From the NCBI GenBank assembly GCA_019637095.1, contig JAHBWG010000067.1, forward strand, positions 1 through 53,104: a DNA stretch of 53,104 nucleotides, given 5' to 3'. The translations under genes were made by a program, and so were the position numbers. Source of the stretch: Sandaracinaceae bacterium. Lineage in GTDB: Bacteria > Myxococcota_A > Polyangia > Polyangiales > Sandaracinaceae. The notes below the pieces were generated by a model. That model was not told where the DNA came from. It ran no database searches and saw nothing but the letters and a program-made list of their open reading frames with translations. This document shows, one piece after another, positions 1 through 5,692 of the stretch. The first letter of the stretch is position 1. Each line of letters begins with the position of its first letter.

Positions 1-3000
1 GCCGCGGCGTCGGCCTCGTCGAGCCGGTCGAGCCGCGCCAGCGCCGTCGCGCGCAGCGCGAGCGCGGCGGCGAGCGAGGCCCCGGTCCCCTCCTCCACCA
101 GCCGATCGATCACGACCAGCGCACGCGCCGGCTGACCGTCCTGCGCGAGCGTCCACGCGGTGAGCGCGCGCGCTTGGTCACGCAGCTCGGCGTCCACGTC
201 GGCGAGCACCGGCTCCACCGCGGCGAGCGCAGCCAGCGCGGCCCCCTGCGCGTACCCGCGGCGCGCGCAGCGCGCGGTCGCGATGGCGTGGCGCACGCGC
301 AGTGGTGCGTCGAGCGCGGGCGCCGCCTCGGCGAGCTCGCCGAGCGCCAGCTCCGCGAGCTCCGTCATCCCCGCGTCGAGCGCCGCGGCGGCCGCGTCGA
401 GCCCGCGCTCGAACGCGCTCGGGTCGAGCGGTCCGCGCGTCGCGCGGAGCACACGCGCGGCCTCGATGAAGTGGCGTGCGGCGCGCGCGAGCTCGCCTCG
501 CGCGCGCGCCATCTCGCCCGCGCGCACGAAGTAGTCGGGCGCGCCCCGCGGGTCCAGCGAGCGCGCCGCGTGCTCGGCGATCCGCTCGACGCCCTCGAGG
601 CTCGCGTCGCCGCCGACGCGCTCCAGCGTCGCGACGATCCGCGCGTGCAGGCGCGCGCGCTCCGCGGGCTCGAGCTCGGCGAGGATCGCGCGCCGGACGA
701 GCGCACCCGGGACGCTGACCTCGGCCGGCAGCGCGCTCGGCGTCGGGCCGTGCCCCCCCCAGCTCCCGATGCGCGCGGGCGGCGCGCCGCGCGCCTCGGG
801 TCCGACGACGAGATGACGTGCCCACAGGCGCCGCAACGGGGCTTGCTCCGTCTCGCCGACGAGCCCCTCGGTCGCGCAGACGAGACGAACCTCGACGGCC
901 TCGCCCATCGCCGCGACGACGCGGAGCATCGAGCGCTCGCGGGCGCGGAGCGGCTCGAGGCGCGCGGCGACCGACGCGACGAGCGGCGCCGGCGGCGCGA
1001 CGTCCGGCAGCTCCTCCACGCGGCGCCGCGCGACGCCGCCCTCGATCGCCACGGACTCGCGGAGCGCCTCGGCGACGAGCTCGATCCACGCGGGGATCCC
1101 GCCGGTCAGCGCGTGGACGTGGGCGGCGAGCGCCGGCTCGATCGCCCGCGCGCCGAGGTGGTGCGCGGCCAGCGCCGCCGTCGCGCCGGGGTCGAGCGGC
1201 TCGATCACGCGCACGTCGCCGTCGCTCGACGCGAGCCCGCTCACGCCGGGGCGCCTCGAGACGAGCACGACGACCCGACATCGGCCGAGGCCGTTCACGA
1301 GGAGCGGGAGCACCTGCCGCGTGGCGTCGTCCATCCAGTGGAGGTCCTCGAGCGCGAGGACGACCACGCGATCGCGGCTCAGCGCCCTGACCGCCTTGCG
1401 CAGCGCGAGCGCGAGCTCGATCCCGCGCGGCCTCCCCTCGCGCGCGTCCGACGCGACCGGGTACGCGAGGCCGACGAGCTCGCCGAGCCGCCGCAGCTCG
1501 TGGGGCGCGAGCCCCAGCACGCGCATGCGCTCCACCTTCGCGAAGCGCACCTCCGGCGCGTCCTCGGCCTCGACGCCGCAGAGGTCCATCACGAGATCGG
1601 CGAAGGCGCCGAAGGCGCGATCTCCATCGGTCTCGTCCGCGCGGCCGTGGACGAAGACGAAGTCGCGCGGTGCCGCCGCCGCGCGCAGCTCCGCGAGCAA
1701 GCGCGACTTGCCGACCCCCGGCTCACCGACGAGCTCGACGAGCGCGCCGCGCCCGGCGGCGGCGTCGAGGAGCCGCGCGGAGAGCTCGCGCAGGAGCTCG
1801 CGACGCCCGACGTGCGGGCCTCGCATCCGCAGCGCGCCGGCCGCGCGATCGCGGCGCGCGCGGAAACCGCGCACGAGGAGCGCCCCGTCGCCCGGCTCGG
1901 TGACGAACTCTCGCCCGACCTCGGCGGCGAGCGCGGAGGCGACGCGCACCTCGTCGTCGGCGGTCGCCGCGAGGAGCGCCCGCGCCGCGGCCTCGACCTC
2001 GGCGGAGGGCTTCGCCGCGCCGTCGAGCACCTGCGCCTCGGCGCCGATCACCGCCATCGCGGGCGTGGCGTGCAGGCGCTCCGCGCCCTCGAGCGTCACG
2101 GCGCGCCGGACCTCGAGCGCGCCGCGGATCGCGTGCCCGACGGCGCGCTCCATCCCCTGCACGCCGAACACCGCGAGGTGCAGCCCCTCGCCGACCGCGG
2201 GGACGAGCGCGCCGGCCGCGCGCGCCACCGCGCTCGCGAAGCAGCCCTCCTCGCCGGGCCGCAGACGCGCGGCCAGGAACGCGAGCCGGCGGCTCTCACT
2301 CTTCGCCCGCCGCGGGATCGGCAGGACGTGGGTGTGTGCGGTCGAGTCGGGCGCCGCGCCCGTCGAGCGCAGCTCGCGCCCCGGATCGCTCGCGGCGGCC
2401 GCGTCGTCGTAGGCCCGCTCGAGGAGGTCCACGCGCAGCTTGTTCGGATCGAGGCGCTCGTCGCGCGGGAACATGCGGTGCATCGCCGCCGCGAGATCGG
2501 TCGCGCCCACCGGACGGCCGAGCGCGTAGATCAGCTGCGTGAGCTCCGCGTGGATCTCGCCGGCGGACGCGTAACGATCCGCGCGCTCGCGAGCGAGCGC
2601 CCGCTCGATCACCGGCGCGAGCTCCTCGATCGGCAGGTGCCTCCGGAAGTCCGGGAGCTCCGTCGCGCGCACGCGCGAGAGGATCTCGGGCGCGGTGAGC
2701 CCGTGGAACATGCGCCGCCGCGTCGCGAGCTCGTAGAGCAGGATGCCGAGGGAGAAGAGGTCGCTCCGCCGATCGAGCACCTCGCCGCGCGCCTGCTCGG
2801 GAGACATGTACGCGTACTTGCCGCGGAGGATCTTCGGGTCCTCGCCACGGCCGAGGCCCGGCTCGTCGGCGCGCGCGATGCCGAAGTCCGCTACCTTGAC
2901 CTCGCCCTCGTAGCCCAGCAAGACGTTTTGCGGGCTCACGTCGCGATGGACGATGTTCATCGGCTTGCCGTCGTCGAAGCGCGCGCGGTGCGCGTAGTCG

Positions 3001-3380
3001 AGCGCCTTGGCGACCTCCGCGCCGATCCAGAGGCGGACCGCGAGGTCGAGCGGCGCCTCACCCGCGCGGCGGAAGCTCAGCGCCGCGGCGAGATCGCGCC
3101 CGCGCAAGAGCTCCATCGCGATGAAGTAGGAGCCGTCCTGCTCGCCGAGGTCGAAGATCTGCACGATGTTCGGGTGGCTCAGCCGCGCCGCGATCTTCGC
3201 CTCGCGGATCAGCAGCTCGGCGAACCCCGGCCGCTCGAGGAGCGAGGGCAGCACGCGCTTGATGACCACCGCCTTCTCGAACCCGGCGACGCCGCGCGAG
3301 CGCGCGCGCCAGACCTCGGCCATTCCCCCTTCGGCGATGCGCTCGACGAGCTCGTAGTTGCCGAACGGGATCCCCGACAC
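1..3380 (-). CDS. Ser/Thr protein kinase fused to cyclase-like and AAA/MalT-type ATPase regions (C-terminus beyond window)
   Basis: A Hanks-type kinase comes first (residues about 5-270). It has the glycine loop AEGGMAEV, catalytic IVHRDVSPQN, DFGIA and YMSPEQA. A region around residues 360-460 resembles a worn class III cyclase domain (stretch LEVRRAV and surroundings) without an obvious complete catalytic set. A P-loop GEPGVGKSR near residue 550 and a Walker-B-like LALEDLHW follow. Alpha-helical, TPR-like sequence then runs off the left edge. This order matches the multidomain kinase/cyclase/ATPase regulators common in myxobacteria, which are large cytoplasmic signalling proteins. I chose the GTG at 3380 because it is the nearest start giving SGIPFGNYELV before the kinase; a TTG at 3395 is also in frame. 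At least 1,126 residues are present. The substrate is unknown. The kinase call is firm and the cyclase-like call is an inference. Confidence 0.9.
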   Translation of the reverse strand, partial: MSGIPFGNYELVERIAEGGMAEVWRARSRGVAGFEKAVVIKRVLPSLLERPGFAELLIREAKIAARLSHPNIVQIFDLGEQDGSYFIAMELLRGRDLAAALSFRRAGEAPLDLAVRLWIGAEVAKALDYAHRARFDDGKPMNIVHRDVSPQNVLLGYEGEVKVADFGIARADEPGLGRGEDPKILRGKYAYMSPEQARGEVLDRRSDLFSLGILLYELATRRRMFHGLTAPEILSRVRATELPDFRRHLPIEELAPVIERALARERADRYASAGEIHAELTQLIYALGRPVGATDLAAAMHRMFPRDERLDPNKLRVDLLERAYDDAAAASDPGRELRSTGAAPDSTAHTHVLPIPRRAKSESRRLAFLAARLRPGEEGCFASAVARAAGALVPAVGEGLHLAVFGVQGMERAVGHAIRGALEVRRAVTLEGAERLHATPAMAVIGAEAQVLDGAAKPSAEVEAAARALLAATADDEVRVASALAAEVGREFVTEPGDGALLVRGFRARRDRAAGALRMRGPHVGRRELLRELSARLLDAAAGRGALVELVGEPGVGKSRLLAELRAAAAPRDFVFVHGRADETDGDRAFGAFADLVMDLCGVEAEDAPEVRFAKVERMRVLGLAPHELRRLGELVGLAYPVASDAREGRPRGIELALALRKAVRALSRDRVVVLALEDLHWMDDATRQVLPLLVNGLGRCRVVVLVSRRPGVSGLASSDGDVRVIEPLDPGATAALAAHHLGARAIEPALAAHVHALTGGIPAWIELVAEALRESVAIEGGVARRRVEELPDVAPPAPLVASVAARLEPLRARERSMLRVVAAMGEAVEVRLVCATEGLVGETEQAPLRRLWARHLVVGPEARGAPPARIGSWGGHGPTPSALPAEVSVPGALVRRAILAELEPAERARLHARIVATLERVGGDASLEGVERIAEHAARSLDPRGAPDYFVRAGEMARARGELARAARHFIEAARVLRATRGPLDPSAFERGLDAAAAALDAGMTELAELALGELAEAAPALDAPLRVRHAIATARCARRGYAQGAALAALAAVEPVLADVDAELRDQARALTAWTLAQDGQPARALVVIDRLVEEGTGASLAAALALRATALARLDRLDEADAA

Positions 3381-3468
3381 GGAGCCGGAGCATAGCAAGA
3401 GCGCGACAGGCCACGCGGCGGTTGGAGCGCCACCACGCGCGACCCGAGAACGGACCACCAGGGCCCGT

Positions 3469-3508
3469 GAGCGAGCGGGCGAGCGGGCGAGCGGGCGAGC
3501 GAGCGAGG
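3469..3508. repeat. Short tandem repeat of an 8-bp unit (GAGCGGGC)
   Basis: Three perfect copies of GAGCGGGC occupy 3473-3496, flanked on both sides by GAGCGAGC-type variants. The repeat lies in the gap between the kinase start at 3380 and the hairpin cluster at 3512. It is a simple microsatellite-like run with no visible coding role. Confidence 0.8.
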
Positions 3509-3511
3509 CCA

Positions 3512-3655
3512 GGCCATCGCGCAGCGATGGCCGTTGGCCGAGGGGGCCCCATCGCCCCGCGATGGGGTCGAACGCGGCTCCGCCGCGTTCGTCTTGGGCG
3601 GGGGGCCCCATCGCGGCTTTGCCGCGATGGGGGGAGGGGTTGGAACAACCCCTCC
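3512..3655. repeat. Cluster of five perfect stem-loops with 3-nt loops
   Basis: Five adjacent inverted repeats can be read directly. 3512-3532 has a 9-bp stem and loop GCA. 3547-3567 has a 9-bp stem and loop CCC. 3569-3591 has a 10-bp stem and loop TCC. 3606-3632 has a 12-bp stem and loop TTT. 3633-3655 has a 10-bp stem and loop GAA. Three of them share the core ATCGC/GCGAT, and the 14-mer beginning GGGGGCCCCATCGC occurs at 3542 and again at 3601. The last hairpin begins 7 nt past the stop of the anti-sigma gene on the minus strand, so it may protect or end that transcript, although there is no T tract. The cluster resembles REP/REPIN-type intergenic palindromes. Confidence 0.85.
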
Positions 3656-3661
3656 GAAGAT

Positions 3662-4882
3662 TCAGTACGGGTTGAGCAGGTCCAGCTGCTGCCTCGCCGC
3701 CGGCCGCTCCGCGCCCGACCCGGGTGCGGCGCGCGCGCGCCGCGCGGCGGGCGCGGCGGGGGAGAGCGAGCCGCCCGCGGTCGGCGCGGGGTGATACGCG
3801 TGCGTCACCTCGTAGGTCGCGTGCGCGCTGCGCGGCATCGACGCGGACTGCACGGCGCGCCGGATGCAGGCGGCCTCTGCGCCCGTGAACGGCGGCCGAA
3901 CGGTGACCGTCTCGACGCGACCGGTCGCGCCCTCGACGCGCACGCGGACCTCGGCCACTTCACGCGTGCGCACCATGCAGGACGCGACCGCGTGAGCGAC
4001 CTGGTTGAGGGCGTTGACGACCTCGACGCGCGACGGCTCTCGGGTGACCGGCGGCTCGGCCGCCGGCTGGTCGGCGCGATCGCCGCGCGCGAACTCGCCC
4101 GCGCTCGTGGAGCCCGTCGCGTACCCGGAGCCTCCGCCGCCCGCGCCGCGGGCGGGCGCGCGCGCGCCGAGCCCGTCGAAGCCGCCTCCCGAGGTCACGC
4201 CCCGCGCCACCACCACGGGCGGCGCCGGGGCCTCGGCCGGGATTGCGGTCGCCGTCGGCGCGGGCACGGCCGGCGCGGCGTACGCGACGGCCGCCTGCTC
4301 CTCGCGCTCGCCCTCGGCCGGCGCCGTCGTCGGCGCGGCGGCCATCGGCTCGGGCACCGCCGCGCTCTCGAGGTCCGCGGGGACGTCGACCGACTGGACC
4401 GCAGGCGCCGCGCTCATCTCGGCCGGCGCGCCGCGATCCATCGAGAGCCCGGCCATCACGCCCATCCCGACCGCCGCCGCCGCGGCGAAGGCGCCGGCGA
4501 GCGCGAAGACGCGGTTGCGCTGCTCGCGCCGCGCCGAGAGATCCACGACCTCTCCGCCCGCCGCGGCGACCGGCGGCGCCGCGACGCGTCGCGCGGACGG
4601 CTCGTCGGCGAACTGCGGCGGCGCCGTCGCGTCGAGCCCGTCGTCGAAGCCCGCGTCCGCGTCGAGGGCGTCCTCGATGCGCCCGAGCATCGCCTCCCAG
4701 TCGGGCTCTCGCCGGGCCGCGCCGAGCCCGCGGAGCGCCTCGTCGATCGCGCCGAGATCCTGCGCGTAGCGCGCGGCCTCCGGATCCGCGTCGAGGCGCT
4801 CGCGCAGCGCCGCGTCCGCGTCGAGGCCGCCGGGCGCGCCGAGCGCGTCGGAGATCCGGCGCATGAGCTCCTCGTCCGTCAC
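3662..4882 (-). CDS. Putative transmembrane anti-sigma factor with AgmX/PglI-like C-terminal domain
   Basis: The 406-residue product follows the ECF sigma gene. Its GTG start overlaps the sigma stop as GTGA, so the two are probably translationally coupled. Residues 1-120 are a cytoplasmic acidic and helical part. A single membrane helix spans about 124-147 (VFALAGAFAAAAAVGMG). A long Ala/Pro/Gly-rich linker leads to a C-terminal domain at about 290-380 with two cysteines (VASCMV and EAACIRRAV). That pattern resembles the C-terminal domain seen in myxobacterial AgmX/PglI proteins. No zinc-binding HxxxCxxC motif is visible at the N-terminus, so this is not a classic zinc anti-sigma factor. The role is inferred mainly from the pairing: it would hold the sigma factor at the inner membrane and sense a periplasmic signal. 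Confidence 0.7.
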   Translation of the reverse strand: MTDEELMRRISDALGAPGGLDADAALRERLDADPEAARYAQDLGAIDEALRGLGAARREPDWEAMLGRIEDALDADAGFDDGLDATAPPQFADEPSARRVAAPPVAAAGGEVVDLSARREQRNRVFALAGAFAAAAAVGMGVMAGLSMDRGAPAEMSAAPAVQSVDVPADLESAAVPEPMAAAPTTAPAEGEREEQAAVAYAAPAVPAPTATAIPAEAPAPPVVVARGVTSGGGFDGLGARAPARGAGGGGSGYATGSTSAGEFARGDRADQPAAEPPVTREPSRVEVVNALNQVAHAVASCMVRTREVAEVRVRVEGATGRVETVTVRPPFTGAEAACIRRAVQSASMPRSAHATYEVTHAYHPAPTAGGSLSPAAPAARRARAAPGSGAERPAARQQLDLLNPY

Positions 4883-5511
4883 GACGCCCGCCTCCCCGCC
4901 GGCTCGGCGCCCTCGCCCTCGCCCTCGCCGGCGCTCGCGTCGCCGTCGTCCGCCGTGTCGGCGAGCGCGATGCGCAGCCGGCGGCGCGCCTCGTGGATGC
5001 GCCACGCGATCGTTCCCTCGGAGCACCCGAGGATCTCGGCGACCTCCTTCTGCGGCATCCCGTCGACCAGCACCATGATCACCGTAGTGCGAAGCGACTC
5101 GCTGAGCCCGCCGACCGCCTCCGCGATCCGGCCTTGGAGCTGGCGCGCCTCGAGGGCGTGCCGCGGGTCGTTGCTGCCCTGCGTCGGGTCCGCCTTGGGC
5201 TCCGGCACCCGGGGATCCGCGAGGTCCGCGGCGTCGTGCCGCTTGCGCTTGCGGATGTGGTTCAAGCAGACGTTGACGCAGACCCGATAGAGCCACGTCG
5301 AGAGCTGGCTGCGCCCGTCGAAGCGCGCGATCGCGCGCCACGCGCGCACGAACGTCTCCTGCACCGCGTCGTCCGCGTCCCCGCCGTCGCCGAGCATGCT
5401 CACCGCGCAGGCGTACACGCGGCGCTGGTGCAGGCGCACGAGCCGGCTGAACGCCCTGCGGTCCCCCGCTTGCGCGGCCTCGAGCAGCTCGGCTTCGGTG
5501 GGCTCCGGCAT
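4879..5511 (-). CDS. ECF-type RNA polymerase sigma factor
   Basis: The 210-residue protein has region 2 at about residues 15-85, with the DDAVQETFVRAWRAI and STWLYRV motifs typical of sigma-70 region 2.2-2.4. Region 4 lies at about 125-180 and carries the helix-turn-helix KEVAEILGCSEGTIAWR. The C-terminal tail is Glu/Gly-rich and variable. The ATG at 5511 gives a normal ECF N-terminus (MPEPTEAELL). An upstream in-frame start would add 32 residues with no family similarity. The gene is the first of a pair with the presumed anti-sigma factor and overlaps it by 4 nt. Autoregulation is usual for such pairs, but I could not identify a matching promoter in the 181-bp gap to the PilZ gene. Confidence 0.92.
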   Translation of the reverse strand: MPEPTEAELLEAAQAGDRRAFSRLVRLHQRRVYACAVSMLGDGGDADDAVQETFVRAWRAIARFDGRSQLSTWLYRVCVNVCLNHIRKRKRHDAADLADPRVPEPKADPTQGSNDPRHALEARQLQGRIAEAVGGLSESLRTTVIMVLVDGMPQKEVAEILGCSEGTIAWRIHEARRRLRIALADTADDGDASAGEGEGEGAEPAGRRAS

Positions 5512-5692
5512 TCGCGTCTCGGACGCGGGCCGCCACGCCAACACGAGGCCGCCCCATCCGGGCCCCATGCTAGCAGCTGTCGTGGGCAGCGTGGCGAATG
5601 CCTGCATCGCGCCTCAGACCAGCCCCCTCGGGAGCGGCTTGGGGGAGGCTGGAAGTTTGCTCCGCTCGGAGCGCCGAGTATCGTCTGGATGC

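Follow-up and report, generated by a model that had tools for sequence, protein, structure and literature searches.

A dispersed five-hairpin repeat placed behind gene ends in Sandaracinaceae and other myxobacteria, probably a mobile palindromic element

In the window, i.e. the whole 53,104-nt stretch of Sandaracinaceae DNA that was analysed, an ECF sigma factor gene (4879..5607, minus strand; Pfam Sigma70_r2/r4) is followed by a gene at 3665..4885 (minus; start inferred), which ends at the repeat described here and whose product is presumed to be an anti-sigma factor, as suggested by its place behind the sigma gene, yet carries no Pfam domain. The TGA stop codon of this gene is seen in the sequence at 3662..3664 (minus). 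Downstream, and co-directional with these genes, lies a gene for a Ser/Thr kinase with an AAA domain (3..3380, minus; Pfam Pkinase, AAA_16; GTG start at 3380 inferred), which runs off the window. The gap between the presumed anti-sigma gene and the kinase gene holds five hairpins; no promoter-like site was found in this gap, and no intrinsic terminator, in the sense of a GC hairpin with a T-run, was found at 3300-3900.

The first-pass annotation had described the hairpins as five perfect stems of 9, 9, 10, 12 and 10 bp, each with a 3-nt loop, at 3512-3655, and all five were recovered as claimed. They are named here H1 to H5 along the minus strand, which is the sense strand of the repeat. H1 (the fifth stem in forward order; 3633..3655, 10 bp, GGAGGGGTTG-TTC-CAACCCCTCC) shows a compensatory C-G/T-A change in 11 of 30 copies and starts 6 nt behind the TGA, the spacer being ATCTTC (3656..3661, minus), which in many copies belongs to the repeat (GTCTTC, GCTTGC, GTTTGC). 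It is abutted by H2 (fourth stem; 3606..3632, 12 bp, CCCCATCGCGGC-AAA-GCCGCGATGGGG), which is followed by an unpaired C-rich tract (3592..3605, CCCCCCGCCCAAGA) kept in the family head as CCCCCC[AT]CCC, and then by H3 (third stem; 3569..3591, 10 bp, CGAACGCGGC-GGA-GCCGCGTTCG), H4 (second stem; 3547..3567, 9 bp, CCCCATCGC-GGG-GCGATGGGG) and H5 (first stem; 3512..3532, 9 bp, GGCCATCGC-TGC-GCGATGGCC), the last of which occurs in two alternative sequence types with full compensation. H5 is enclosed by an outer collar (3507..3539, minus), in which 3507-3511 pairs with 3535-3539 and which co-varies from GGCC/GGCC to GACC/GGTC. With this collar, the repeat unit (3505-3660, minus) is slightly longer than the 3512-3655 originally delimited; it matches the covariance model described below with 173.6 bits, and its RNA folding z-score is -7.3 on either strand. 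The 14-mer GGGGGCCCCATCGC, also part of the original description, was found at 3542 and 3601, 59 nt apart. Just past the end of H5 there is an 8-bp tandem repeat, GAGCGGGC, at 3468-3506, where other copies have a conserved tail.

At a GC content of 74.6%, 3.3 such hairpins are expected in the window overall, and one could thus regard the five as a chance cluster in GC-rich DNA, or as a local array unique to this gap. However, the window was simulated 200 times with a third-order Markov model, and perfect 9-bp stems with 3-nt loops were counted per 125 nt: 185 of the runs had a maximum of 0 or 1, 13 runs reached 2, single runs reached 3 and 4, and none contained five within 125 nt. These simulations, together with the dozens of homologous copies found elsewhere, refute both forms of this explanation, to which we attach a negligible probability.

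The host genome (G000; 9.25 Mb, 197 contigs) gave at least 76 BLAST matches to unit 3505-3660, and the 40 of 258 candidates that were scored are near full length, have 85-98% identity and are spread over many contigs. Searching with a covariance model built on 30 copies yielded 138 matches (E up to 1), of which about 75 had scores of 60 bits or higher, and the pattern of the H3 palindrome, allowing up to 3 mismatches, occurs at 150 sites as opposed to 17 for a reversed control pattern. Some copies stand head to tail in tandem, with junctions (marked by a slash) such as ..CTCGATG/TCTTCGGAGG, and the terminal hairpin with its tail is also repeated alone as a tandem array (G000 C13:93241-93484; L003 1699-1733). 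The genome search proposed in the first-pass annotation has therefore returned dozens of dispersed homologues, and the palindromes are not unique to the gap: together they make up a single copy of a palindromic repeat of ~155 nt that is dispersed over the genome in high copy number. The same annotation had considered a structured RNA acting on the sigma/anti-sigma operon or as a leader of the kinase gene; such an operon-specific role was rejected, because copies follow unrelated genes, among them those for a polyprenyl synthetase, UPF0014 and a sigma-54 activator.

Outside the host, the repeat was followed by its family head (H1, H2 and the C-rich tract), the diverged form being searched as a head model. 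A search of 289 genomes of the class found the head in 34, from at least eight families; the per-genome counts from this class survey are lower bounds (at least 18 at the top), and the complete genomes G001 and G006, both Sandaracinus-type, hold 36 and 68 heads, respectively. In the GTDB collection, the matches listed for the exact pattern of the head are all Myxococcota, Myxococcales, Polyangia or 'Deltaproteobacteria' drafts. As regards a phage or plasmid origin, there was one exact match among the IMG/VR viral contigs and none among the PLSDB plasmids. Many draft contigs end at the repeats (G005:C58:60, C46:17; G008:C246:58; G035:C54:39), so that draft copy numbers are probably underestimates; conversely, the repeat may explain contig ends in several myxobacterial drafts. 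Rfam gave no hit at gathering score for the window and seven relatives (best sub-threshold 18.9-20.7 bits), and no description of such repeats in myxobacteria was found in the open-licence literature.

A distinctive property of the repeat is its position. Of 71 non-tandem copies in the host genome, 59 follow a coding ORF in sense orientation and begin no more than 40 nt after its stop, with a stop-to-H1 distance of exactly 6 nt as the mode; 58 of these 59 stops are TGA, mostly in the context C-TGA-G. The constant feature is the upstream gene end and not the downstream gene, since the latter is convergent in 36 cases and runs in the same direction in 35. CTGAG by itself cannot account for the stop-adjacent position, because in 238 kb with crude gene calls the noncoding DNA contains 60 CTGAG sites away from stops vs 46 at stops, the latter number being inflated by the copies themselves. 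In G001 and G006 taken together, 25 of 33 copies have a coding-gene stop within 40 nt, again with a mode of 6 nt; most G002 copies have a distance of 8-9 nt. The head in G005 and G035 lies 4-13 nt after TAG, TAA and TGA stops, or further downstream, and several G005 copies are found 46-106 nt downstream of a stop, or after T-runs. A few Sandaracinus copies are reversed and stand at the stop of the opposite gene. In relatives, the head is also found 9-13 nt behind tRNA genes at three loci (L055, L139, L143) and 5 nt behind an SRP RNA gene (L138). The use of all three stops and of RNA gene ends suggests that more than a DNA motif is being read or tolerated.

Evidence on mobility was obtained by joining the flanks of Sandaracinus copies and searching them as queries in the sister genome (G001 vs G006). 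At L054, the filled site reads GCTTGAG/CTTGCG... and the empty one in G006 GCTTGAG/CCGAG; the second copy of L062 and the L172 copy likewise have empty orthologous sites in G006, and for L067, L174, L182 and L186 of G006 the sites are empty in G001, with the flanks of the pairs being mostly 85-98% alike. The copies at L176 and L171 are common to both genomes. Since these two Sandaracinus-type genomes show filled vs empty orthologous sites, copies appear to come (or go) at such sites, and the repeats are, as judged from these alignments, mobile. The idea that the element supplies the stop codon was rejected: the empty alleles of L054, L062, L172 and L067 carry the stop at the same place, and the stop therefore belongs to the gene. 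At L067, an intrinsic terminator directly downstream of the insertion is retained, and at L182, where the element is reversed behind the stop of an opposite gene, CTCAG stands on both sides vs one CTCAG in the empty allele. No clear target-site duplication was found in sense-oriented copies, CTCAG on both sides being clear only in L182. Another short repeat family (GGCTCGCCCGCCGGTCCCTCCCGTCCGCGCGCTTCGCG...), with a period of about 84 bp, some 60 matches and frequent tandem copies, was observed in G001, e.g. at C1:4506935-4507261 and 8994279-8994561; it, too, shows a presence/absence difference at an orthologous site downstream of a terminator, adjoining L067 in G006.

Taken together, we consider it probable that the repeat is a REP/MITE-like non-autonomous mobile palindrome array, which in recent events has inserted directly behind gene stops (mostly C-TGA-G), with its H1 end nearly always gene-ward, leaving the gene and its terminator unharmed. 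The recent empty/filled pairs are nearly all directly at a stop, which favours targeting over selection. Copies that lie away from stops in G005, or that are reversed at the stop of the opposite gene in Sandaracinus, count against this interpretation, as does the fact that the searches yielded neither an autonomous copy nor a mobilising enzyme and that Y1 and Y2 transposases do not correlate with the element. Mechanistically, a trans-acting mobilising enzyme would recognise the palindromes as DNA, probably in single-stranded form, and insertion would be either aimed at, or tolerated solely at, gene 3' ends.

A competing, less probable but still credible explanation is that the repeat is a conserved functional RNA 3' element (a stabiliser of mRNA 3' ends, a staller of termination or a Rho-related terminator), spread and kept by selection, with mobility being secondary. 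The sense orientation and the 6-nt spacing to the stop are in line with this, as are the strong hairpins and the unpaired C-rich tract conserved across genera, the heads behind tRNA and SRP RNA genes, and the finding that ribosomes in E. coli stall at REPs that lie within 15 nt of a stop (PMC12306157). However, orthologous genes with closely similar flanks do without the repeat, host intrinsic terminators are kept downstream, which makes the repeat unneeded as a terminator, and the window gap itself lacks a T-run terminator.

The upkeep of the palindromes bears on the same question. The check for compensatory changes proposed in the first-pass annotation gave strong covariation: in the 30 copies, 97.8% of the pair cells are standard pairs, and 11 pairs are changed on both sides (47 cells), a result matched in 0 of 500 shuffles and lost when the partner was slid by 1-3 columns. 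When the family head (H1, H2) was compared between genera, both sides had changed in 18 of its 21 pairs (433 cells; 0 of 500 shuffles), although the alignment of this set was fitted to the structure and leans towards it. If the sense RNA alone mattered, G.U would be tolerated and A.C would not be expected; yet the stems show no excess of G.T over A.C cells (17 vs 14 in the 30 copies, 9 vs 29 in the head set), which speaks against an RNA 3' element and points to a DNA palindrome. It would thus be the DNA hairpin itself that is maintained, e.g. through the machinery of mobilisation or through correction of one arm by the other.

A mobile DNA palindrome, as preferred here, may also act as RNA. 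From known ribosome footprints, the 6-nt spacing would bring the front edge of a ribosome positioned on the stop codon approximately to H1, where the H1-H2 hairpins would be met upon termination. Like the REPs of E. coli, H1-H2 may then influence termination or the stability of mRNA 3' ends, and by this analogy ribosome stalling or protection of mRNA 3' ends by the repeat is plausible. Dozens of genes may in this way have come to share a 3' hairpin with an effect on termination or mRNA stability.

With respect to the putative mobilising enzyme, one candidate is a Y1 transposase, the repeat then being a REP/REPIN-type or other IS200/IS605-type (HUH) single-strand DNA element with CTGAG as target. 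The hairpins in subterminal position, the oriented insertion on the 3' side of a short motif and the lack of a clear duplication would be in line with this, and three IS200-like Y1 genes of 148-152 aa occur in the host genome (C132:37703-38065, C90:92414-92770, C124:66222-66578), one of them ~0.7 kb from an element copy. We nevertheless regard this explanation as quite unlikely, given that Y1 (PF01797; RAYT, IS200) is absent from the carriers G001, G006, G002 and G014, including the two complete genomes with 36 and 68 heads, that G003 has 11 Y1 matches but no element, and that the GTAG/CGTC tag is not conserved. Y2 (PF04986; IS91) is likewise absent from G001, G002, G005, G008, G035, G054, G062 and G232, so that the complete G001 genome has neither enzyme. 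RAYT/IS200 and IS91 were consequently rejected as the common mobiliser, as PF01797 and PF04986 do not track the element, and no link was found to a REP-associated tyrosine transposase, for which the first-pass annotation had proposed to look. No autonomous copy was seen around 58 G001/G006 heads inspected by eye.

Alternatively, the repeat could be a MITE derived from a classical DDE insertion sequence whose short palindromic target is CTNAG, as might be read from the doubled CTCAG at L182 vs the single one in its empty allele, from the reversed copies and from the ends TGAG..CTCA in L171, L174 and L182. This, too, is unlikely: the terminal inverted repeat is not longer than about 4 bp, the copies show a strong orientation bias, which a palindromic target would not lead one to expect, and CTGAG away from stops, although frequent (60 sites in 63 kb of DNA crudely called as noncoding), is not used in the sample. 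A more far-reaching proposal, which we put forward tentatively and hold to be rather improbable as it stands, is a new class of mobile element, whose machinery would recognise the 3' ends of functional genes as such (several stop kinds, tRNA and SRP RNA ends), perhaps via the RNA 3' end or translation termination, and in which serial DNA hairpins would replace terminal inverted repeats.

RAYT enzymes are credited with the movement of many palindromic repeats in bacteria. The present family seems to be mobile in their absence, and its preference for the base immediately after the stop codon is unusually exact. Sandaracinus, a culturable myxobacterium, offers a test case for a mobile element that spares its host by settling at gene ends. 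Compared with the REP, BIME and REPIN elements of Enterobacteria and Pseudomonas, the repeat is likewise a palindromic, extragenic sequence in high copy number, single or in tandem and often close behind stops, and to this extent the REP/REPIN-like character suggested by the first-pass annotation holds. It departs from them in its length, ~155 nt with five stems as opposed to 20-40 nt units that may be paired, in the lack of RAYT in complete carrier genomes and in having no conserved tag at the palindrome foot (GTAG in 1, CTAC in 5, CGTC in 11 and GACG in 24 of 30 copies, with GACG at the H3 foot alternating with GGCG between copies). Its stop spacing is also far tighter than in E. coli, where about 11% of predicted REPs lie within 15 nt of a stop (PMC12306157). 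The CGTC-tagged REPs (PMC3733652) are similar in being palindromic repeats without a dedicated transposase, and differ in that the present unit is much longer and carries CGTC in the minority of copies given above.

As for IS200/IS605 elements, the CTGAG motif and the orientation agree, and the Y1 enzyme is missing from G001 and G006. The repeat resembles MITEs of insertion sequences in being non-autonomous and present or absent at orthologous sites; in contrast to them, its ends are at most TGAG..CTCA where MITEs have long terminal inverted repeats, its sense copies lack a clear duplication, no parent IS was found, and it sits at gene ends. Neisseria-type DUS terminators and mobile terminators are also dispersed inverted repeats at gene ends, whereas the present repeat has no T-run and the host terminator stays downstream. 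Group IIC introns and Tn7-like end-of-gene elements insert behind gene ends or terminators as well; unlike these, the repeat is not specific to the sequence of one gene, and at ~155 nt it is free of intron or transposase features. With no Rfam family, no paper in the open-licence literature and no REP tag found for it, the repeat appears to be an undescribed form of the REP/MITE kind, and it is the rule by which it settles at gene ends that is the surprising part.
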